DNA of 28,057 nucleotides from a virus. The notes beneath the pieces were generated by a model. It searched no databases. It was not told the DNA's origin and worked only from the letters and a program-made list of their open reading frames with translations. How positions within the stretch are numbered: the first letter of the stretch is position 1; the number at the start of each line of letters is the position of its first letter. The translations under genes were made by a program, and so were the position numbers. Positions 624 to 17,126 of the stretch are shown here, piece after piece. Where the stretch lies: the IMG/VR virus record IMGVR_UViG_3300040801_004913, positions 1-28,057 of that record; one strand, 5' to 3'.

Positions 624-1289
624 ATGTCGACGATCGCGGAGACGAAGTACGTCGTCGATGCGCCCGAGGGCTACAAGAAGCTCGGCGCGAGGATGAAGGT
701 CGAAGGCGCGTTCGTCGCCGAGAGGTCTCCCGACCACCGACGATTCGCCCGCGGCACCAACCACCGGCTGCAGTTCAAGGCTGAGCCCGACAACGAGTAC
801 GACAAGAACGCGATCAGGGTGTTCGGGGCGGTCAACGAAGGACGCCGCAAGGTCACACGCCTCGACCTCGGGTACGTCCCAGCAGATGTGGCGAAGGTGA
901 TCGCCGACCGTGAGCTTTGCCCCGAGCGATTGGTTGGCCTCGTCACATCGTGTCGGTGGGTCCGATACGACGACTTCGACGACGACGATGACGGCGGAGT
1001 GGACCGCCACTTTGTCGACTTCAACATCTTCTGGCCCACAGACGGAAGCGCTTCCACTCACGTTGCGAGGGCGGAACGCGAAGTCGAGGAAGCTCGGGCA
1101 GCCGAAGCGAGGCAAGCCGCAATCGAGGACGCCGCCCGGCGGCGAGCCGCTCGCGAGGAACGGGTGAGAGCAATCGCCGCGAAGTGGCACGGGCTCCGCG
1201 GCGGAGACAAGCTCGCGATCGCCGTAGGCGGGGTCGCCGTCATTGCGATAGTGGCGGGGACGGCGTGGGCGATTGCCGCTGTGGGATGA
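624..1289 (+). CDS. HIRAN-domain protein with C-terminal membrane anchor
   Basis: The protein is 221 aa. Residues about 25-115 match the HIRAN pattern: a basic/aromatic stretch, then AEPDNEYDKNAIRVFG (residues 53-68), then LGYVPADVAKVI. HIRAN domains are known to bind DNA ends or stalled replication structures, alone or fused to helicases and nucleases. A poly-Asp stretch follows, then an Ala/Arg/Glu-rich helical segment likely to be a coiled coil. The C-terminus (about 198-220) is one strongly hydrophobic helix, so the protein would sit on the membrane with HIRAN in the cytoplasm. I chose the ATG at 624 because the upstream GTG extension (513) adds only a low-complexity Arg/Gly segment. HIRAN joined to a membrane tail is unusual. 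It is the first of four rightward genes. Assignment from motif only. Confidence 0.75.
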   Translation: MSTIAETKYVVDAPEGYKKLGARMKVEGAFVAERSPDHRRFARGTNHRLQFKAEPDNEYDKNAIRVFGAVNEGRRKVTRLDLGYVPADVAKVIADRELCPERLVGLVTSCRWVRYDDFDDDDDGGVDRHFVDFNIFWPTDGSASTHVARAEREVEEARAAEARQAAIEDAARRRAAREERVRAIAAKWHGLRGGDKLAIAVGGVAVIAIVAGTAWAIAAVG

Positions 1290-1456
1290 CCCCACCCACT
1301 GCGTCGCCTGGGGCCGCGATGGCGAAGCCTGGTACGCGACGCGGGATGGGGACCGGGGGATGGGGTGAGCGACCCCGACGGCCCCTCTTATCGCTCAGGC
1401 GAAACGTAGTCAGCAAGCTCTTCACCGTTCACAACACAGTCACGGAGTACCGCTCG

Positions 1457-1717
1457 ATGCCCAGTCTCAAGCTCGTTGAGGATCAGACGTTCGATCACCA
1501 AACTGTCCTGGTCACGGGACACCACTTCCTTCGATGCAAGTTCCATAGCTGCGACTTCCTTTTTCGCGGGATGCCATTTGGGTTCGATAGCTGCGAGTTC
1601 TACGGCGCGTCGACCTGGGATCTTCAGTTCGTAGCGTATGACGAAACCCAGTGGGACGAATTTCTGACTGCAGTGGCGCCCATGGTCACCAAACAGCTAC
1701 CCCGCCTACCGAAGTGA
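1457..1717 (+). CDS. Small pentapeptide-like protein
   Basis: This is an 86-aa protein starting at ATG 1457, with GGAG 9 nt upstream. Residues about 24-55 show a repeating pattern of aromatic/Leu, Arg/Asp/His and Cys (LRCKFHSCDF, FDSCEFYG), like a short right-handed pentapeptide-repeat helix or the small 'FxNCxF' hypothetical family. Two Phe-Cys cores are visible, but the coil count is too low for a full pentapeptide protein. GC content is visibly lower than in the phage genes. It ends 19 nt before the next gene, so it may be the first gene of an operon with the 337-aa and membrane proteins. Function unknown. Confidence 0.7.
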   Translation: MPSLKLVEDQTFDHQTVLVTGHHFLRCKFHSCDFLFRGMPFGFDSCEFYGASTWDLQFVAYDETQWDEFLTAVAPMVTKQLPRLPK

Positions 1718-1736
1718 TCGGCCGAACATGTGACTC

Positions 1737-2750
1737 ATGTCCAACACGGGCTCATATCGCACCATGACCACCACGATTCAGATTCTTCCGTTCGAGATCG
1801 TCACGTACGACGGAGTTCCTCCGGACAGATTCCTTAGAGAGGTTGAGGCGTTCAGTGGGAAGCGTCATAGCCGCGGATCTCAAGCCGACGCGCCTGAAAC
1901 CGAGGAGTCGGCGAGGTATCTGTACTGCGGCCATCTGCCCGACGGCTACTTCGGAGGCTTGGTCCGATCCACGCACGGGTCTACTGCACTGGCTTCCGAC
2001 GCAGATGACTCGGACAAGGTCGGCATCTCTACATTTTCCCTTGATCCGCAGAACAAGACGTTCACAACCGCGAACTACATGCTCCTGAATCCACAGACTC
2101 TCAAGGGCATGTACGTTGCGTACCGCCACTCTGCCTCATTGGGAGACTTGAAGTGGATGCTTCGGCGGATGCACAGGAACGCGGTAAAGAAGCTGCGAGA
2201 TGAATTGGTTGAGCAGCTTGTGGCATCGGAGGGCATAGAGCGAACCGAAGCGCGAGCCAGAGCGAATGAGCAGATCAGCGGAGAGTTTGCGATCCGGCAA
2301 CTCGTCGACTCTGCGACGTTTGATGAGCTGCTGGATGAGGCGAGGCGAGTTTCCTATTTCGAACTCGACGTTGCTACTCCGGTCTATGACGAAGGGCTGG
2401 ACGGTCTCGCTGCCCACGCAGATATGAACGTCATGGGGTTCTACATGAGCAAGGCTGGGGCCGTGACCGAAGTAGTGGCAGCGATCCGAGAAGCGATCAC
2501 AAAGCGAAAGCCAAAGTCCGCGATGGTCCGGGGGTCGTTCGAAGATGGGAAGCAGAGGATTCTCAGGCTCACAACTGAAAGGCGCTATCCTGTAGAAGAG
2601 TTCGACCTTGGCCCGAACCTTAAAGAACTCGTGGTCGAAGACGTTCAGGAATGGGCGAAGGCGGGAGCGATGAAGTGGCTGTACGAAGCGATCAGAGACA
2701 ACGAAGGTCTCGCCGGGCCGCCGCCGCCCGGCGATGGCTTGCCGGGATAA
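1737..2750 (+). CDS. RexA/KwaB-like candidate: soluble partner of a four-helix membrane protein
   Basis: The protein is 337 aa with no signal peptide or membrane segment. The N-terminal third looks alpha/beta (YLYCGHLPDGYFGGLVRS). A charged helical middle follows (about 130-200). The C-terminal part has a beta-rich segment (MVRGSFEDGKQRILRLTT) and a final amphipathic helix. From memory, this order resembles lambda RexA, which also has an early YLY segment, a late beta segment of the type xRAKDEAGD, and a C-terminal helix. The likeness is in layout, not strong identity. The stop overlaps the next start as TAATG, so the two proteins are translationally coupled. In RexAB and Kiwa a soluble, DNA-sensing protein works with a four-helix membrane protein. 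An alternative start is ATG 1764; neither has a clear Shine-Dalgarno. A defence role is inference. Confidence 0.65.
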   Translation: MSNTGSYRTMTTTIQILPFEIVTYDGVPPDRFLREVEAFSGKRHSRGSQADAPETEESARYLYCGHLPDGYFGGLVRSTHGSTALASDADDSDKVGISTFSLDPQNKTFTTANYMLLNPQTLKGMYVAYRHSASLGDLKWMLRRMHRNAVKKLRDELVEQLVASEGIERTEARARANEQISGEFAIRQLVDSATFDELLDEARRVSYFELDVATPVYDEGLDGLAAHADMNVMGFYMSKAGAVTEVVAAIREAITKRKPKSAMVRGSFEDGKQRILRLTTERRYPVEEFDLGPNLKELVVEDVQEWAKAGAMKWLYEAIRDNEGLAGPPPPGDGLPG

Positions 2751-3361
2751 TGCCGTACAAGGGCATCATGCTCGCGTGGGCATTGCTCACGGCCGCGGCG
2801 GCTGCGGCAGCTTTGTTCGCCTCGTACATATGGGGTGACGGAGGCCTCTGGCGGTTTTACTCGGAGAGTCTCCGGGGGAACCTCTTCTCGGGCATGTTCA
2901 GTGCGGCAGCGTTCATGTTGTCCTTGCTGACGTTCACGATCGTCTCCATGCATGCACACCTATATTCCTCTCCGGGGTACCGGCGACATGTCAAGGTGGT
3001 GGGGCAAGTGCAGCCAGTTAGCGAACTCTACGACCCTCTGCGAAAGCTCATGCAGAGGCTTGTGGCCGCCACATCGGTATGCCTGGTAGCAGCGGTCTTC
3101 CAGCTGACTCTCGGCATCATCCCGACCCAACTCACTGCAGCCTTGGCTATCGGAGGATCGGCTGCAGCAGCAGCGTTTCTAGCGAACGGTCTCCTAGAGG
3201 TGGCGCGCAACTTGCAGCGACTCATCACGGAGTGGCAGAAGGAAGCTGATCAGGAGGAGGAGGCCGCGAAAGCCGCTTCCCGCGATGACAGAGACCGGCC
3301 AGGCCGCTCCGCCGCAGCCATTCCGCCCCCCCAAGAATCTCCGCCCCCTTCCCCAGATTGA
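2750..3361 (+). CDS. Four-helix membrane protein (RexB/KwaA-like candidate)
   Basis: This 203-aa protein has four predicted transmembrane helices, at about 5-28, 46-67, 104-124 and 127-149. A charged, Ala/Glu/Arg-rich tail and a Pro/Ser-rich end follow and are probably cytoplasmic. The ATG at 2750 shares its A with the TAA stop of the upstream gene, which decides the start; the longer open frame from 2651 overlaps the upstream gene heavily. RexB of lambda is a four-helix inner-membrane ion channel, and KwaA is also a four-helix membrane protein. Size and topology fit either, but I see no diagnostic residue. A rho-independent terminator follows at 3415. It could depolarise the membrane when its soluble partner is triggered; that is inference. 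Confidence 0.75.
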   Translation: MPYKGIMLAWALLTAAAAAAALFASYIWGDGGLWRFYSESLRGNLFSGMFSAAAFMLSLLTFTIVSMHAHLYSSPGYRRHVKVVGQVQPVSELYDPLRKLMQRLVAATSVCLVAAVFQLTLGIIPTQLTAALAIGGSAAAAAFLANGLLEVARNLQRLITEWQKEADQEEEAAKAASRDDRDRPGRSAAAIPPPQESPPPSPD

Positions 3362-3414: not shown

Positions 3415-3451
3415 CCCCGTCACGGACCTGCCTTCCGTGGCGGGGGCTTTT
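3415..3451 (+). terminator. Rho-independent terminator, copy 2 of a repeated hairpin
   Basis: Arms 3415-3426 and 3434-3445 pair over 12 bp with one G-U wobble around a 7-nt loop. TTTT follows at 3448-3451. It ends the rightward island and faces the end of the leftward phage operon, so it separates converging transcription. The core arms are identical to those at 227-255. Confidence 0.75.
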
Positions 3452-6844: not shown

Positions 6845-7327
6845 TCACCCGAACTTCCTGGCCCAGGCCTTCTCGACCCGGTCCGTCACGGTCTGGAACA
6901 GGTGCTCGGCGATCTTCGGCCCTCGCCGCTCGAGCACCTTGCGGATGAAGGGCCGGGCGCGAGAGTGGCGCGTCCCGAACTCGACCAGGTGCAGGTAGTA
7001 GGAAGGGTCGATCTCGCGAGGCTTGCCGTCCTTCGTCTCGCCCCCGTCGGGGTGCGGGAACCGCCGGCCGCGCTGCGCCCCGACCCGCAGCGCGATGAAT
7101 CCCTGGGCCTTCTTCGCACGCTTCATGTACGTGATCGAGTCCTGGAGAGCCCCTGAGGCCGGCCGAACCGGGGCGGCGATCGCAACCCACTCGGCCAAGT
7201 CACGCCCCACCGGCGCGAGCGCCCGGTTCACCGCGGTGAAGCCCTCCTCGCCAAGGGAGCCGAGCATCTTCATGAGGTGCTTCGCCTCACGCTCGTCGAA
7301 CGTGGCCACGATCATCGGGAGCGTCAT
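6845..7327 (-). CDS. HK97 gp10-like head-tail/tail completion protein
   Basis: This is a 160-aa protein starting at ATG 7327, overlapping the tape measure stop as ATGA. The hallmark of the HK97-gp10 family is near the C-terminus: YYLHLVEFGTRHSRARPFIR, a conserved EFGT followed by a small-residue RPF(I/L)R element, with a long N-terminal helical region before it. The family normally joins head and tail and sits between the connector and tail-tube genes. Here it is downstream of the tape measure, an unusual place. It could have been moved, or adapted as a tail-tip protein. Confidence 0.75.
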   Translation of the reverse strand: MTLPMIVATFDEREAKHLMKMLGSLGEEGFTAVNRALAPVGRDLAEWVAIAAPVRPASGALQDSITYMKRAKKAQGFIALRVGAQRGRRFPHPDGGETKDGKPREIDPSYYLHLVEFGTRHSRARPFIRKVLERRGPKIAEHLFQTVTDRVEKAWARKFG

Positions 7328-8829
7328 ACCGCAGCCCCCGTGATGACCGTCCGGAACTCCCCGCTCTCCAGCTTGGAGAGCATGGCCCGGAGCAGCGTCG
7401 CGACTTCGGCCTGGGTCTCCTGGTTGGCTGGCCGGTCCTTCGCCGATGCGCCGCCGGTCACGGCGACGTTGCGGAGCGAGTCGACGACCCGGAACCCGCC
7501 GGCCGCCGGCTCCTCAGCCGCTCGCTCCAGGGCGCCGCGGATCATCGCCCCAGCGCCGGCGACGCGGTCCGCGACCGCCGCGGCTCGCTCACCGACCGCA
7601 CTGAGCACCGAGCTCGCGAGGCCCCCGAAGTCGAGCAGCCTGCCGCGCTCTTCCTCGAGCACGGCGGCGGGCGTGCCCTGGCCGGCGCCCGCGGCGGCTC
7701 GCCGCGCTGCGTCGGCGGCGATCTGCCGCTGCCGCTGCAAGATCTTCGACTCGAAGGTCGGGGACTCACCGATGGCCTTCGCCACCCCGGCCCAGTATTT
7801 CTCGCCGATCTTCGCGAAGTCGGCGATCTCGTCGTTCAGACTGAGCTTCGAGAGCTCCACGGAGATGCCGGGGATCCTGTTGATCGCCGCCTCGACCTTC
7901 GAGATGATCAGGTCGGCCTTCTCCGCGATCCAGCCGACGGCCTTGAAGATCCCCTCCCAGAGCTTCGCGAACCCGAAACGGACGGACTGGATGGTGTCCG
8001 CGATCCACGCGATGGCCTTCGAGATCGGGCCGAGCGTGCTGGTGGCCTTCTTCCCCGCCGCGTCGGCCTTGTCCCCGGTGCCGAGGATCAGGTCCGAGAG
8101 CACGGTGATCGCCGGCGCGAGGTCGATCGCGATGCGATTGAACACGCCGCTGAAGGCCTTCTGCATGCGATCGACCGCATCGTTGGCCGCCTCGATCTGC
8201 GCGTGGTCCACGCGGCTCATCGCCAGCCCGAGCCGCTCCGCCTCGGCCTGCATCCGGTCGAGCCCGGCCGCACCGAGGTCCAACGTGTTCACCAGGGCGA
8301 CGCCCTCGGAGTCGAAGAGCTTCATCGCGAGTCGCACCTGGTCGGACCGGCTGCCCACCTGACCCATGGCGTCGGCGATGGCCTTGAACTGCTCGTCCGG
8401 GCGCATCGCCTCCAGGGCTCCGGCGTTCAATCCGAGCTCCTGGAGGGCCGCGACCGCCTCCCCGGTCCCGTTGGCGGCCTCGGACACCCGGCGCGTCATC
8501 CGCTGCAGGCTCATGTCCAGGGTGCCGGCCGAGACGCCCGTCTGCTCGGCCGCGTGGCGCAGGCCGGCAAGCTTCTCGGTGGCGATCCCGATGCGGTCAG
8601 CCATCTTGGCCGTCGCGTCCATCGCCGCGAAGCTCTTCGCCGTGAACGCCCCGAGGGCTGCCCCGCCAGCCACGCCCGCGAGGACGGGATGGAAGGACGC
8701 GAGCCCCTTCACCATGCGGCCGGCGGACTTCGTGAACCGGGCCATGGTCCGGCGGGCGGACTTCATGCCGGCCTCGAACTTCGCGGTCCGCGTGCGGATG
8801 TCGACGTAGAACGTCCGAACCTTGGCCAT
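7324..8829 (-). CDS. Tail tape measure protein
   Basis: This 501-aa protein starts with an ATG at 8829 that overlaps the chaperone stop as TGATG; a TTG one codon upstream is possible. The N-terminus (VRTFYVDIRTRTAKFEAGMK) and the following FTKSAGRMVKGL are typical of minor tail/tape measure proteins. Ala-rich helices (about 45-240) and a hydrophobic stretch near 280-310 (ISKAIAWIADTIQSVRFGFA) follow. Tape measure length sets tail length, and 501 residues would imply a short siphovirus tail. It is smaller than most tape measure proteins (often over 700 aa). Its place right after the frameshifted chaperone genes supports the call. Confidence 0.88.
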   Translation of the reverse strand: MAKVRTFYVDIRTRTAKFEAGMKSARRTMARFTKSAGRMVKGLASFHPVLAGVAGGAALGAFTAKSFAAMDATAKMADRIGIATEKLAGLRHAAEQTGVSAGTLDMSLQRMTRRVSEAANGTGEAVAALQELGLNAGALEAMRPDEQFKAIADAMGQVGSRSDQVRLAMKLFDSEGVALVNTLDLGAAGLDRMQAEAERLGLAMSRVDHAQIEAANDAVDRMQKAFSGVFNRIAIDLAPAITVLSDLILGTGDKADAAGKKATSTLGPISKAIAWIADTIQSVRFGFAKLWEGIFKAVGWIAEKADLIISKVEAAINRIPGISVELSKLSLNDEIADFAKIGEKYWAGVAKAIGESPTFESKILQRQRQIAADAARRAAAGAGQGTPAAVLEEERGRLLDFGGLASSVLSAVGERAAAVADRVAGAGAMIRGALERAAEEPAAGGFRVVDSLRNVAVTGGASAKDRPANQETQAEVATLLRAMLSKLESGEFRTVITGAAV

Positions 8830-9149
8830 CAATCAGCCCTCCGCCCCGTCGCCGCGAGCCACTGGTGGGCCCGCAGCTCGATCTCCTCGGGGCTCTGCCG
8901 CCGGCTCCGCCCGAAGTCCGGCATGAAGTCGCCGGGCGTCACCTCCCGTCGCCCGCCGAACGCCGCGATCTGGGCGGCGATGATCCCCGCCCGCAGGTCC
9001 GCCCGCTCCGGGCCGAACGGCTCGATCCGGTCGAACGCGGACCACTCGGTGAACTCCGCCGAGTCGATCTCGCGCTGAGCCCGGCGGACGCTCATCCCCA
9101 GGGCGAGGGCGAGGCGGAACCACTGGCGGCGCTCCGGCCGCCGCCTCAG
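8829..9149 (-). CDS. Tail assembly chaperone, T extension read by -1 frameshift (GT product)
   Basis: This frame has no need for its own start. After GGGAAAC at 9155-9149 it is entered in the -1 frame and adds 106 residues to the 112-aa G protein, giving a GT product of about 218 aa. The added part contains RQWFRLALALGMSVR and then FTEWSAFDRIEPFGPERADL, the typical tail assembly protein T/DUF4035 pattern (EFxEWxAYxxxEPFGExRxDL). In lambda, G and GT hold the tape measure during tail assembly, and their ratio matters. Independent initiation at ATG 9095 is possible but would cut off the conserved FRLALALG segment. Confidence 0.85.
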   Translation of the reverse strand: MRRRPERRQWFRLALALGMSVRRAQREIDSAEFTEWSAFDRIEPFGPERADLRAGIIAAQIAAFGGRREVTPGDFMPDFGRSRRQSPEEIELRAHQWLAATGRRAD

Positions 9150-11629: not shown

Positions 11630-12994
11630 TCAGGAGGAGGCCATCTGCAGGGTCTTCACCGCACCGTGCGACGCACCGGCGTACCGGCCGTCGTGGCGGC
11701 TGAAGGCGAGGAAGCCGACCTGCAGGTTGTCCATGTACCGCTCGGCGAAGCGGACCAGGGTGACCGACCGCACGTCGCGGATCGTGTAGTCGGCGAAGTG
11801 CCCATAGGCCATCACCTTGGCGTCGGCCGCGATCTCTGCCACCGACTGGTTGATCACGTACGGATCGCCGTCGATCGTGTCCGGCTCGCCCACGATGCGG
11901 CTCGGCTGCCAGAGCGGCCGGGCGTCGCCCGATCCGATCGACAGCTTCTTGATCGCCGCGAGCGTCGTGTCGTGGAGCATGAACCGGCCACCCAGCTCGC
12001 GGTACGCCGGGTCCACCGAGTGCTTCAGGTCGATGATCTCGCTGAACGCCAGGGCCGCCGCGGCCGCCGCCGTCTTCCCGACCGTCGCCGCGGTCATCAC
12101 CCCCTGCGGCTGCCCGGTGCCCGTGCCCGTGGTGAAGAACGCGTTCGTCGCCCGGCCGAGCCGCTCGGCCAGCTTCATCATCAGCCAGCTCTCCAGGTCG
12201 AAGCCCGAGTCCTGGAGCAGCTGCACCGGGACCTTGACGATCTTCGAGCTGAAGGTGAAGGCCTTCAGGACGTCCGCCGCGAACGTCGGGTCGCCGTCGG
12301 TCGCATGAGCGACGTTCTCGCCCACGATCACACCGACGTTGCCGGTGTCGTCCGCCGACGGGTACGGCATGTCCGCCCCCGACGCGGTCGTCAGGATGGT
12401 CGCCCCGACGCGTCGCATGCCGCCGAAGGACTTCATCCGGTCGATGATCCGGGTCACGAAGTCCTCGGGGATCGTCTCGCCGCCGGCGCCGCTGGTGGTG
12501 CTGTCCAGGGCTCGCAGCTCGGGCGATCCGCCGCCCCGGAGCGTCACCGAGTCGCCGCCCGCGGGGACCCCGTCCGGGGCCGACCCGCTCGCCAGGAGCT
12601 CCCGCTCCTCGGTCGTCAGCGCCCCGGAGCCCCGGCACGCCCACTTCCGGAAGGCCGCGCGCCGCTGGCGGTCGCCGTCGCGCTGCTCTCCGCGGCGGCC
12701 GCCGCCGGCCGGCCCCTCGCCGCCGAGGTCCAGGGAGAACCGGCGATCGTGGAGGCCCTCGCCCATGGAGTCGAGCTGCTCCTGCCGCTCCTCCATCGCC
12801 TGGATCTGGTCCTCGGCCTCGCGGATCTGGACGTCGAGCGCGTCAATGTCCGCCCGCCGCTTGTCCCACTGCTCGGACTCTTCGGCGGTGAACTCGCGAG
12901 CCTCTTCGCGGACCGCCTTGAGGGCCTCGCGGCTCTGCTCCCACAGGTCCGCCTTCTTCGCCCGCAGCTCGCGGGCCTTCGTGTAGAGCGTCAT
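11630..12994 (-). CDS. HK97-fold major capsid protein
   Basis: This is a 454-aa protein. Residues about 5-75 form a charged coiled coil (ELRAKKADLWEQSREALKAV onward), the scaffolding-like delta domain removed by the prohead protease. A Gly/Arg-rich linker follows. The capsid core begins near residue 150 (ETIPEDFVTRIIDRMKSFGG), with typical blocks PVQLLQDSGFDLESWLMMKL, NAFFTTGTGTGQPQGVM, FMLHDTTLAAIKKL and the closing MDNLQVGFLAFSRHDGRY. The start at ATG 12994 is preferred to the open upstream extension, which contains the stem-loop and has no protein-like sequence. It follows the protease in the usual order. Confidence 0.93.
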   Translation of the reverse strand: MTLYTKARELRAKKADLWEQSREALKAVREEAREFTAEESEQWDKRRADIDALDVQIREAEDQIQAMEERQEQLDSMGEGLHDRRFSLDLGGEGPAGGGRRGEQRDGDRQRRAAFRKWACRGSGALTTEERELLASGSAPDGVPAGGDSVTLRGGGSPELRALDSTTSGAGGETIPEDFVTRIIDRMKSFGGMRRVGATILTTASGADMPYPSADDTGNVGVIVGENVAHATDGDPTFAADVLKAFTFSSKIVKVPVQLLQDSGFDLESWLMMKLAERLGRATNAFFTTGTGTGQPQGVMTAATVGKTAAAAAALAFSEIIDLKHSVDPAYRELGGRFMLHDTTLAAIKKLSIGSGDARPLWQPSRIVGEPDTIDGDPYVINQSVAEIAADAKVMAYGHFADYTIRDVRSVTLVRFAERYMDNLQVGFLAFSRHDGRYAGASHGAVKTLQMASS

Positions 12995-13034
12995 TTCGCT
13001 GATCTCCGGGGCTATCTGCCGGGGACCAACGCAC

Positions 13035-13078
13035 ACGCGGACCGCCGGCACTTGAATGAAGTGCTGGACAGTCCGCGT
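13035..13078 (-). promoter_or_regulatory. Long two-step stem-loop between protease and capsid genes
   Basis: Outer arms ACGCGGAC (13035-13042) and GTCCGCGT (13071-13078) match perfectly. After a small internal loop (2/3 nt), inner arms 13045-13053 and 13059-13067 pair over 9 bp with one wobble and close on a 5-nt loop. It lies within one of the longer gaps of the operon (192 nt) and 40 nt before the capsid start. It may be a processing or stability element, or a site linked to an extra capsid promoter. Confidence 0.7.
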
Positions 13079-13186
13079 CGAATCACCGCTCGAGCACGGG
13101 ACCTGTCGTTCCTCGCAGGCGGACGGATGCGAACTCGCCCAGGGGCACGGCCCCACCGCTTGCGAAGCGAACAGGATGTCGTTCCA

Positions 13187-13816: not shown

Positions 13817-15519
13817 GCCTCGGCCTCCATGATGATCCTGGCGAGCTCGTCGGCCCGCTCCGTGTCCCAGGCGGCGAGCCGACGCTCCACCCCCGCCCGC
13901 CAGTCGCCCTCGGCCCGCAGGACCGCCTTCAGGCGGCTCTCGCCGCTGATCCGGACCCGGCGGGCCGCCGCGGCCGCGTCGATGTCCAGGTGGGCCAGAG
14001 GGCCCGCGAGCGACCTCGCCGCGAACGCCTCGTGGTCGTCGTAGAGATCGCCGAGCTGGGCCTCCAGGGCCTCGCTCGAGCTCGCCCGCTTCGCGGCCCG
14101 CCGCAGCCGGTCGAGCTCGCGGGTGGCGACGCGGCCGGCCTCGGCGCTCAGCCACGCCGCGGCGACCCCCGGGGCGCCGGGAGCATCCCGCCGGCCGCCC
14201 TCGCTGCCGCCCGAGTCGCCCGCATTCGGATCGCCGGGGTCACCTGGCTCGCCGTCGCCCTCCCCGGGGCCGGCGCCGTCCTCGTCGTCGCCGCTCGAGT
14301 TGATCTCGTCCACCTCAGCCGCCGGCGCCATCGCCAGCTGGATCCGGTGCACGTCTCCCTCGGGCCCGATCGGGTCCATGTCCTCGAGCTCGCGGACCTC
14401 GTTGATCGAGAGGACGCCGATGCCTGTCATCTCGCGGTAGAACTGCGACCGGGCCTTCGAGTCGCCCCGGAGCAGCGCCTCGGGGTTCATCTTCACGTAG
14501 TAGCCGGCTGCCTGCTCCGCCGGCGTGAACAGCCGGCGGTTGAGCTCCTGCTCGATCCGCCGCATCCACCGGTTGAGCGAGTACCGGACGAACTCGCCGG
14601 ACTGGTGCTCGATGTTCGAGAAGGTCGCACGCGACAGGTCGTAGAGCATGTGCGGGGGGACGCTGAAGATCCGGGCGACCTCCACCACGCTGAACTGCCG
14701 GGTGTCGAGCAGCTGGCTCTTCTCGGCGTCGTTGGTCGTCTGCTGCCAGTCCATTCCCTCTTCGAGCACCATCGTTCGGAACGCGTTGTTCGCTCCGCCG
14801 TAGACCTCCTGCCATCGGTCCCGGAGTCGGTCAGCCGACTCGGGCTTCATCGTTCCGGGATGCTTCAGGATCCCGCCCGCGGTCGTCCCGCGCGCGTAGA
14901 AGCGGCCGGCGAACTCCTGAGCCGCGACCGCGACGCCAAGGGATCGCCTGGCATGCCGGATCGGCCGGAGCCCGAGCACGCCGTCCATCACCATGCCGGG
15001 GATATGGATGAAGTCGCCCGGGTCCGCGGTGACCATCCGGCCCCCCACGGTCACGTCCAGAGCCATCGCTCCGCCGATCTTCCGCGGTGTGCACGAGGTG
15101 GCCACCACCGGCAGGAGCTCCACCGGACGCATGCGGCGGTCTCGACCGATCAGGGCGTACCCGTTTCCGTGAAGCAGCACGTTCCCCATGAGCATCTCGA
15201 GGAACACCTGCGGCGTCATGAGCTCGTTCGGCTGGCGGTGGAGCAGCTGGCGAACAGGGTGCTTCGGATCGACCCGCTCCCTGCGATCGTCAGTCTGACG
15301 GAGCACGCGAAACGGCAGGCTCGCCAGCGTTCCGGCCAGCAGTTGGATCGCCTGCCAGACCGACGTCAGGCCCATCGCCGTCGTCTCATTGACGGCCGGC
15401 ACCTCGCCCTCGTCCTGCAGGCCGAAGTAGGCGAGGACCCGCTTGTTCGAGAGCGGCACGGCCGGGTTCTCGATCGAGAGCGGAGCGTCGCGGCGGAGGA
15501 TGTTGTTCAGCCACTTCAT
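13813..15519 (-). CDS. HK97-type portal protein with C-terminal extension
   Basis: This is a 568-aa protein. The portal core spans about 1-430: TSVWQAIQLLAGTLASLPF, the helical LLHRQPNELMTPQVFLEMLM, GNGYALIGRD, and IFSVPPHMLYDLSRATFSN. After MTGIGVLSINEVRELEDMDP (the usual end of portals near residue 410) comes an acidic Gly/Pro/Asp linker (about 445-490). An Arg/Ala-rich helical domain of about 90 residues follows. HK97 portals are about 420 aa, so the extension is extra and could reach into the capsid interior. ATG 15519 overlaps the terminase stop as ATGA. Confidence 0.92.
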   Translation of the reverse strand: MKWLNNILRRDAPLSIENPAVPLSNKRVLAYFGLQDEGEVPAVNETTAMGLTSVWQAIQLLAGTLASLPFRVLRQTDDRRERVDPKHPVRQLLHRQPNELMTPQVFLEMLMGNVLLHGNGYALIGRDRRMRPVELLPVVATSCTPRKIGGAMALDVTVGGRMVTADPGDFIHIPGMVMDGVLGLRPIRHARRSLGVAVAAQEFAGRFYARGTTAGGILKHPGTMKPESADRLRDRWQEVYGGANNAFRTMVLEEGMDWQQTTNDAEKSQLLDTRQFSVVEVARIFSVPPHMLYDLSRATFSNIEHQSGEFVRYSLNRWMRRIEQELNRRLFTPAEQAAGYYVKMNPEALLRGDSKARSQFYREMTGIGVLSINEVRELEDMDPIGPEGDVHRIQLAMAPAAEVDEINSSGDDEDGAGPGEGDGEPGDPGDPNAGDSGGSEGGRRDAPGAPGVAAAWLSAEAGRVATRELDRLRRAAKRASSSEALEAQLGDLYDDHEAFAARSLAGPLAHLDIDAAAAARRVRISGESRLKAVLRAEGDWRAGVERRLAAWDTERADELARIIMEAEA

Positions 15520-17126
15520 AGGACGATCGGCTCCCGGGAGTCGTAGATCGAGCCGTGGAACTCGGGCGCCGCGATCGCCTGGCCGAGGCCCATGATCACG
15601 CCGATGATCCCGTCGATCCTCGCCGTGCTCTTCTTCTTGTCGAGCTTCACGTTGCCGGCCGCGTCCATCGTCGCCGCCGCGTTCCCGGCCATCCATCGGA
15701 GCACCGGGTGCCCACCGTGGGCGAGACCGCCGGAGATCACCAGCCGCTCGAGCTCACGGGTGGGCGCGCTCATCGACGCGAAGCCCTGGCCGAAGGGGAC
15801 CATCTCGAAGCCGTCGCCCTCGAGCTGCGTCGTGATCTGCGTCGCGTTCCACCTGTCGACGGCGATCTCGCGGATGTCGAACTGCTCGCCCAGGACGCCG
15901 ATGTCCCGGCGGATGACGTCGTAGTCGGTCACGTTGCCGGGGGTCAGCGAGATGAGCCCTTCCTTGGCCCACAGCCGGTAGGGGACGCGGTCTCGTCGCT
16001 CACGCTCGACCAGGTCGTCCGAGGGGAGCCAGAACCGGGCCGCGATCCGCCACGGCTGCCCGTGCTCTCTGGGCGGGAACACCAGCCCGAGGGCTGAGAG
16101 GTCGGTCGTCGAGGCGAGGTCGAGCCCGGCGAAGCACGTCTCGCCGCGAAGCTCCCGCTCGTCGACCGGCGCGTCGCAGTCGTCCCACCGGGCCATCTGC
16201 AGCCACCGGACGGCCTGCTCGGTCCACTGGTTCAGGTGCAGCTGGCGGAAGGTGTTCTCGGCGACCGGACTCTCCTGGGCCCGGCGGCAGGCCTCCTCGA
16301 CGTACTCGTGTCGCAGGGAGACGCCCAGGCACGGGTTCGCCTTCGCCCAGACTTCGGGGTCGGTCCAGTCGTCGTCTTCGTCGGCGGCGAAGATCACCGT
16401 GAGGAAGCTGGGGTCCTCGACCAGGCCGCTCCGAACGCGGACCGCGTACTCACGCTCGTGCCAGCAGAGCGACTGCCGGTCGTAGCCGGCGGTCGTGATC
16501 GACACGATGAGCGGCTGGTGCCGGGCTCCCTGGGCGGTGGCAAGCACGTCGAACAGCTCGCGATTGGGCTGGGCGTGCAGCTCGTCGAAGATGACGCCGG
16601 ACGGGCTGAGGCCGTGCTTCGTGAAGGCATCGCTGCTCAGGGCCTTCATCTTCGATCCCGTCGAGGCGACCTCGAGCGTCTTCGACGCGCGGTACGCCTT
16701 CACCATGGGGCGGAGGACTTCGCTCTGGTCGGCCATCTTGGCCGCCATGTCGTAGACGATCGACGCCTGGTCTCGGTCGGCCGCCGCGGTGTAGACCTCG
16801 GCCCCGGGCTCGCCGTCGGCCAGGAGCAGGTACAGGGCGATGCCGGCTCCGAGCGTGCTCTTCCCGTTCTTCCGCGGGATCTCGAAGTAGGCCTTCCGGT
16901 ACCGGCGAGATCCGTCGGCCCGTCGCCGCCACCCGAAGAGCTCGCCGATCACCCGCGCCTGCCATTGCTCGAGGATGAACGGCTGCCCGGCATGCTCGCC
17001 CTTTGTGTGTGTGAGCACTCGCTCGAAGAACCGCAGCGCCCGGTTCGCGGCCTCCTGGTCGAAGTAGAACAGCTTCGCCGCGGCGGGCGAGAGCGGCCGG
17101 TCGAGATGGCCGAGGGCCTCCATCAT
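15516..17126 (-). CDS. Terminase large subunit (HK97 type)
   Basis: This 536-aa DNA-packaging motor starts with an ATG overlapping the small-subunit stop as ATGA. The ATPase domain shows an adenine/translocation segment (PFILEQWQARVIGELFGW), Walker A IPRKNGKST (residues 83-91) and Walker B SGVIFDELHA (Asp181-Glu182). The coupling motif VSITTAG follows. The RNase H-like nuclease domain begins at FAGLDLASTTDLSA (Asp336), with IAVDRWN and a late ARIDGIIGVIMGLG carrying further acidic metal ligands. It cuts and pumps DNA through the portal encoded next door. Length and motifs are complete. Confidence 0.95.
   Translation of the reverse strand: MMEALGHLDRPLSPAAAKLFYFDQEAANRALRFFERVLTHTKGEHAGQPFILEQWQARVIGELFGWRRRADGSRRYRKAYFEIPRKNGKSTLGAGIALYLLLADGEPGAEVYTAAADRDQASIVYDMAAKMADQSEVLRPMVKAYRASKTLEVASTGSKMKALSSDAFTKHGLSPSGVIFDELHAQPNRELFDVLATAQGARHQPLIVSITTAGYDRQSLCWHEREYAVRVRSGLVEDPSFLTVIFAADEDDDWTDPEVWAKANPCLGVSLRHEYVEEACRRAQESPVAENTFRQLHLNQWTEQAVRWLQMARWDDCDAPVDERELRGETCFAGLDLASTTDLSALGLVFPPREHGQPWRIAARFWLPSDDLVERERRDRVPYRLWAKEGLISLTPGNVTDYDVIRRDIGVLGEQFDIREIAVDRWNATQITTQLEGDGFEMVPFGQGFASMSAPTRELERLVISGGLAHGGHPVLRWMAGNAAATMDAAGNVKLDKKKSTARIDGIIGVIMGLGQAIAAPEFHGSIYDSREPIVL

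Follow-up and report, generated by a model that had tools for sequence, protein, structure and literature searches.

What kind of system is encoded by the two overlapping genes at 1737-3361 of this viral DNA, and is it a phage-exclusion system of the RexAB type? The window analysed here is the whole of IMG/VR virus record IMGVR_UViG_3300040801_004913 (positions 1-28,057; 28,057 bases). In the preliminary description the pair had been taken for a RexAB- or Kiwa-like module, possibly a divergent or new member of this type of defence.

The first gene (1737-2750, + strand) encodes a predicted soluble protein of 337 aa, which is probably RexA-like and of the phrog_2802 family, as judged from a profile from which it had been left out, its homologue in locus L124, phrog_2802 and a fold model of the family. 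The second gene (2750-3361, + strand) encodes a predicted four-helix membrane protein of 203 aa, as judged from a left-out profile, its hydrophobic segments and the alignment; it is RexB-like by position and topology. The 337-aa protein contains no hydrophobic segments and the 203-aa protein contains four, beginning at about residues 6, 49, 106 and 131. The stop codon of the first gene and the start codon of the second share one base within a TAATG overlap (2748-2752, + strand), and short overlaps or gaps are found at this position in the homologous pairs. Scanning and folding indicated a terminator-like hairpin that closes the unit at 3415-3445 (+ strand, listed to 3452), with a 12-bp stem followed by GCTTTTG (-25.2 kcal/mol). 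The two proteins, their coupling and the terminator are therefore as they had been described earlier.

The first 9 residues of the 337-aa protein are missing from the homologues. For this reason translation of the soluble gene perhaps begins at the in-frame ATG of position 1764 instead, giving a protein of 328 aa; there was no ribosome-binding site to decide between the starts at 1737 and 1764. The membrane protein carries the signature FY-x3-LRGNLF-x-G-x6-F-x-LS-x2-TF, and the alignment shows that the strongly conserved blocks LRGNLF..G and LY.PLR..L belong to this protein. Homologues of both genes occur as pairs in other phages and genomes, which excludes chance and confirms that the genes are real.

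The late genes of the window form an HK97-type siphophage cluster, in which tail, tape measure, capsid, protease, portal and terminase genes were recognised, all on the - strand. The terminase gene is located at 15516-17126, the capsid gene at 11630-13156 and the tape measure gene at 7324-8832 (all - strand). In the cluster listing the portal and protease genes lie between terminase and capsid, the tail genes (- strand) run down to about 4104, and replication genes are present at the right end of the window. The pair, on the + strand, thus lies opposite to all recognised late genes, in line with the preliminary description. No repressor or integrase was recognised across the 28-kb contig.

To the left of the tail genes, a + strand group consists of a HIRAN-domain gene (about 606-1289, + strand; Pfam E 1.7e-7), a small gene of 86 aa (1457-1717, + strand; phrog_26297, E 1e-5) and then the soluble/membrane pair. 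The pair is lower in GC: its GC3 is 0.67-0.70 and that of the phage core genes about 0.93, a difference that makes the pair look acquired. The gene at 1457-1717, whose PHROG family is of unknown function, is low in GC like the pair and possibly belongs to one acquired cassette with it. Near-identical hairpin stems (CCCGTCACGG...CCGTGGCGGG, then CTTT) are present at 226-255 and 3415-3445, at both ends of the + strand group; they are perhaps repeated terminators or the marks of a mobile cassette. The HIRAN protein beside the pair has a C-terminal hydrophobic helix. HIRAN domains usually occur in DNA-repair and replication-fork proteins, and one would not readily expect this protein next to a prophage moron.

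Searches with the window proteins in Pfam, NCBIfam, PADLOC and PDB sequences, and by tblastn against phages and plasmids, gave no significant match. The sole direct match in the first searches was a weak one, of residues 107-167 of the soluble protein to phrog_2802 in PHROGs (E 0.0099). Pattern scans with single window proteins gave no relatives, and nothing was found in 300 genomes of the phylum to which the nearest genome with a terminase belongs. When 299 genomes from the phylum of a Neorhizobium genome (G008; Pseudomonadota) were searched in six frames, one significant homologue of the soluble protein appeared, on a bacterial genome contig (L124, E 2.2e-8). The next gene on this contig overlaps it as ATGA and encodes a homologue of the membrane protein (31% identity), which shares the blocks FY...LRGNLF.G and LYDPLR. 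Other weak matches from the genome search (L125-L133) were not counted as homologues; those inspected (L126 and L131) fall in unrelated genes or reading frames.

Viral contigs were then scanned with a pattern based on the two-row alignment of the membrane proteins, which yielded three of them (L134, L135 and L136), each with both genes. The soluble protein of L136, used as a query, led to the E. coli phages vB_EcoS-569R4 and mEp460_4F5 (L138/L139), in which both genes are also present. Over nearly their full length, the soluble proteins of L124, L134, L135 and L136 matched phrog_2802 at 1e-35 to 1e-52, showing that the weak direct match of the window protein is real. HMMs were built from the five homologues, leaving out the window protein; four of the five soluble members had been shown to be phrog_2802. 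The soluble HMM recovered the window protein over residues 54-303 (50.5 bits, E 7.8e-13 at Z 100,000), and the membrane HMM recovered the 203-aa protein (92.3 bits, E 2.3e-25). Judged by these profiles, the soluble window protein is a distant member of phrog_2802.

The preliminary description had raised the question of conserved co-occurrence in other genomes. The two genes were adjacent, with the soluble gene first, in each of the six distinct loci (the window, L124, L134, L135, L136 and L138/L139), and in every homologous pair the intergenic spacing fell between -14 and +4 nt. Three loci were found via the membrane gene and two via the soluble gene; since the partner was present every time, the pairing is not a search artefact. 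In the lambdoid phages vB_EcoS-569R4 and mEp460_4F5 the pair runs on the opposite strand, with antiterminator Q on one side and the lysis genes on the other; in mEp460_4F5 (LR595868.1) it occupies about 37.6-39.1 kb (- strand). Its orientation opposite to lytic transcription, in the window as well as in the E. coli phages, fits the expectation for a lysogenically expressed unit. In L136 (2063-4914) the pair is preceded on the same strand by an HTH repressor-like gene (2063-2461), from which two unknown genes separate it, and beyond the pair the opposite strand carries a gene for a DnaB-type helicase. In lambda, cI stands upstream of the rex pair, as the repressor-like gene does in L136.

AlphaFold run on the window protein as a single sequence produced a model with a pLDDT of 39, for which the PDB gave no fold matches. 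An AlphaFold2 model was made of the soluble homologue of L136 (L136A), using an alignment in which the window protein and two further homologues were included. This model had a mean pLDDT of 56.5 and a pTM of 0.60, and was best in the N-terminal half. Among 350,542 PDB chains, lambda RexA (8TWQ) ranked first (E 1.8e-4, probability 1.00, 337 alignment columns), and it was the only match below E 1e-3 for this model, which is that of the homologue and not of the window protein itself. The TM-scores against RexA were low (0.31-0.35) due to the poor second half of the model. Ranks 2 and 3 were taken by chain N of yeast inner-kinetochore complexes, which we take to be Chl4. IML3 and CHL4 are given as relatives of RexA in the RexA structure paper (PMC11077077). 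On the basis of the model, the phrog_2802 soluble family likely has the RexA fold. The fold comparison that had been proposed with RexA and KwaB thus came out in favour of RexA, at moderate confidence and for the L136A homologue, and KwaB was not among the matches shown.

Pfam RexA (PF15969) and RexB (PF15968) did not match the window proteins or their homologues at E values up to 1; as a control, the lambda proteins do match these families. In an ungapped alignment, lambda RexB was no more similar to the 203-aa membrane protein than to composition-keeping shuffles. The 203-aa protein could be an analogue of RexB; homology is not claimed. By sequence the pair is not a lambda Rex homologue; it is probably of the RexAB type, in a new sequence family. 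The RexAB reading given earlier is largely supported.

Single proteins of the window or its homologues did not match Pfam DUF4747 (PF15931) either, whereas the profile of the soluble family resembled it (score 32.9, P 0.0011), colinearly over 106 columns in the C-terminal half; the best of 18 decoy families scored 18.9 against the same profile. Lambda RexA and Sbash gp30 have been reported to contain a DUF4747 motif (PMC6426596), as has the CarolAnn Rex-like protein. In all four DUF4747 loci fetched (L107, L108, L109 and L110, from Pseudomonadota), the DUF4747 gene lies directly upstream of a gene for a membrane protein with 3-4 helices, which suggests that pairs with DUF4747 generally belong to the RexAB type. 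Thin-profile hhalign comparisons are weak, as lambda RexA against DUF4747 fails too, and their negative results were for this reason not used.

A second RexAB-like pair type was also observed, phrog_31143/phrog_9879, in which a 330-aa soluble gene overlaps a four-helix gene. Pairs of this type are located at 980-2541 (- strand) of L053, 2489-4034 of L121, 2489-4055 of L122 and 2249-3863 of L123; the carriers are a phage contig whose terminase is related, tectivirus-like Vibrio phages and, by a weak match (E 0.06), Shigella phage SfII, where the pair stands between Q and the holin.

Of the known systems, lambda RexA-RexB has the soluble gene followed by the four-helix membrane gene like the window pair, and its RexA (8TWQ) is the fold match of the phrog_2802 family model. 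However, the window proteins are longer than those of lambda, do not match Pfam RexA or RexB, and were not seen next to cI. The actinophage pairs Sbash gp30/31, CarolAnn gp44/43, Butters gp30/31 and Toast gp42/41 have the same layout, and those of Sbash and Butters come after the late tail/lysis genes, as in the window, although sequence similarity between the actinophage pairs and the window pair is undetectable. Antiphage activity has been shown by experiment for the pairs of Sbash (PMC6426596), CarolAnn (PMC6426606) and Butters (PMC7542560). By description, the pair can also be likened to RexABpp of Pseudomonas putida (PP_5643-5644), which consists of a four-helix membrane effector and a DNA-binding protein with the RexA fold, the latter of about 37 kDa (PMC12894663).

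In lambda, Sbash, CarolAnn and RexABpp both proteins are required, the soluble protein senses infection and the four-helix protein damages the membrane or stops growth (PMC12894663). We consider it fairly probable that the window pair is likewise a prophage-borne superinfection defence of the RexAB type, in a new sequence family. The genes themselves, the coupling between them, the recurrence of the pair in different phages and the fold match between lambda RexA and one member of the family are the parts established by computation. Given the conserved pairing and order, this fold match and a placement of the prophage type, the pair is best explained by the standard RexAB scheme. The soluble protein, with a RexA-like two-domain fold, would be dimeric and probably a DNA-binding sensor, responding to replication or recombination intermediates or to proteins from an incoming phage. 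Once triggered, the sensor would switch on the membrane protein made from the overlapping gene, which may oligomerise into a pore or channel and cause loss of membrane integrity or potential. Growth would stop and the infecting phage would fail, sacrificing the infected cell. DNA binding, activation of the membrane protein, channel formation, membrane damage and phage exclusion are in this scheme inferred by analogy with the studied RexAB systems.

The logic may be reversed, as reported for the Rex-like pair of mycobacteriophage Butters, which has the same order and a four-helix partner (PMC12894663, PMC7542560). The soluble protein would then be a toxic antiphage effector, sequestered by the membrane protein until infection. 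The window sequence does not separate this from the standard logic, but the four other studied systems, lambda included, have a membrane effector (PMC12894663) and the strongly conserved blocks sit in the membrane protein, so we regard the reversal as unlikely. A toxin-antitoxin pair, a superinfection-exclusion membrane protein with an accessory factor, or another non-Rex moron would equally be a small two-gene unit on the opposite strand. Such a unit is nevertheless distinctly unlikely, as the only confident PDB fold match of the family model is lambda RexA and the conserved four-helix partner fits RexB.

It has been proposed for lambda RexA that DNA binding near the operators tunes the phage's own lysis-lysogeny switch (PMC11077077), and the pair of L136 does lie downstream of a repressor-like gene. 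That this would be the main role of the pair, with exclusion as a by-product, is very unlikely given that in the E. coli phages the pair is flanked by Q and the lysis genes and that in the window it lies beyond the tail genes, in both cases away from any recognised repressor, and that its GC in the window looks acquired. A divergent Kiwa (KwaA-KwaB) system, which also combines a four-helix membrane protein with a soluble partner, can practically be dismissed, and with it the Kiwa half of the earlier RexAB/Kiwa-like assignment: the Pfam and PADLOC profiles of KwaA and KwaB (PF16162) were unmatched, the profile score against KwaB (19.5) was at decoy level, KwaB structures exist in the PDB and none was among the fold matches shown for L136A, no sequence match was found, and the gene order is reversed, with the membrane gene (kwaA) first in Kiwa locus L140. 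The RexAB half stands, by gene order, four-helix partner, conserved pairing and the fold match to RexA.

RexAB is one of the phage-exclusion systems that have been known longest and, to our knowledge, its trigger is unsolved. By the count of a 2026 paper, no more than five RexAB-like systems have been described (PMC12894663). We lean slightly towards the view that phrog_2802 and its LRGNLF four-helix partner form an unrecognised RexAB lineage, undetectable from known Rex sequences and present in phages from several groups of bacteria, lambdoid E. coli phages among them, and that this lineage, together with the DUF4747 and phrog_31143 pairs, shows a large hidden superfamily of Rex-type sensor-channel systems. 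By analogy, this would give a probable function to phrog_2802, which is listed in PHROGs as of unknown function and to which none had been assigned before. Its members in the lambdoid E. coli phages mEp460_4F5 and vB_EcoS-569R4 may provide an easily tested laboratory system in which to study how infection is recognised by the sensor and how the membrane protein is opened.
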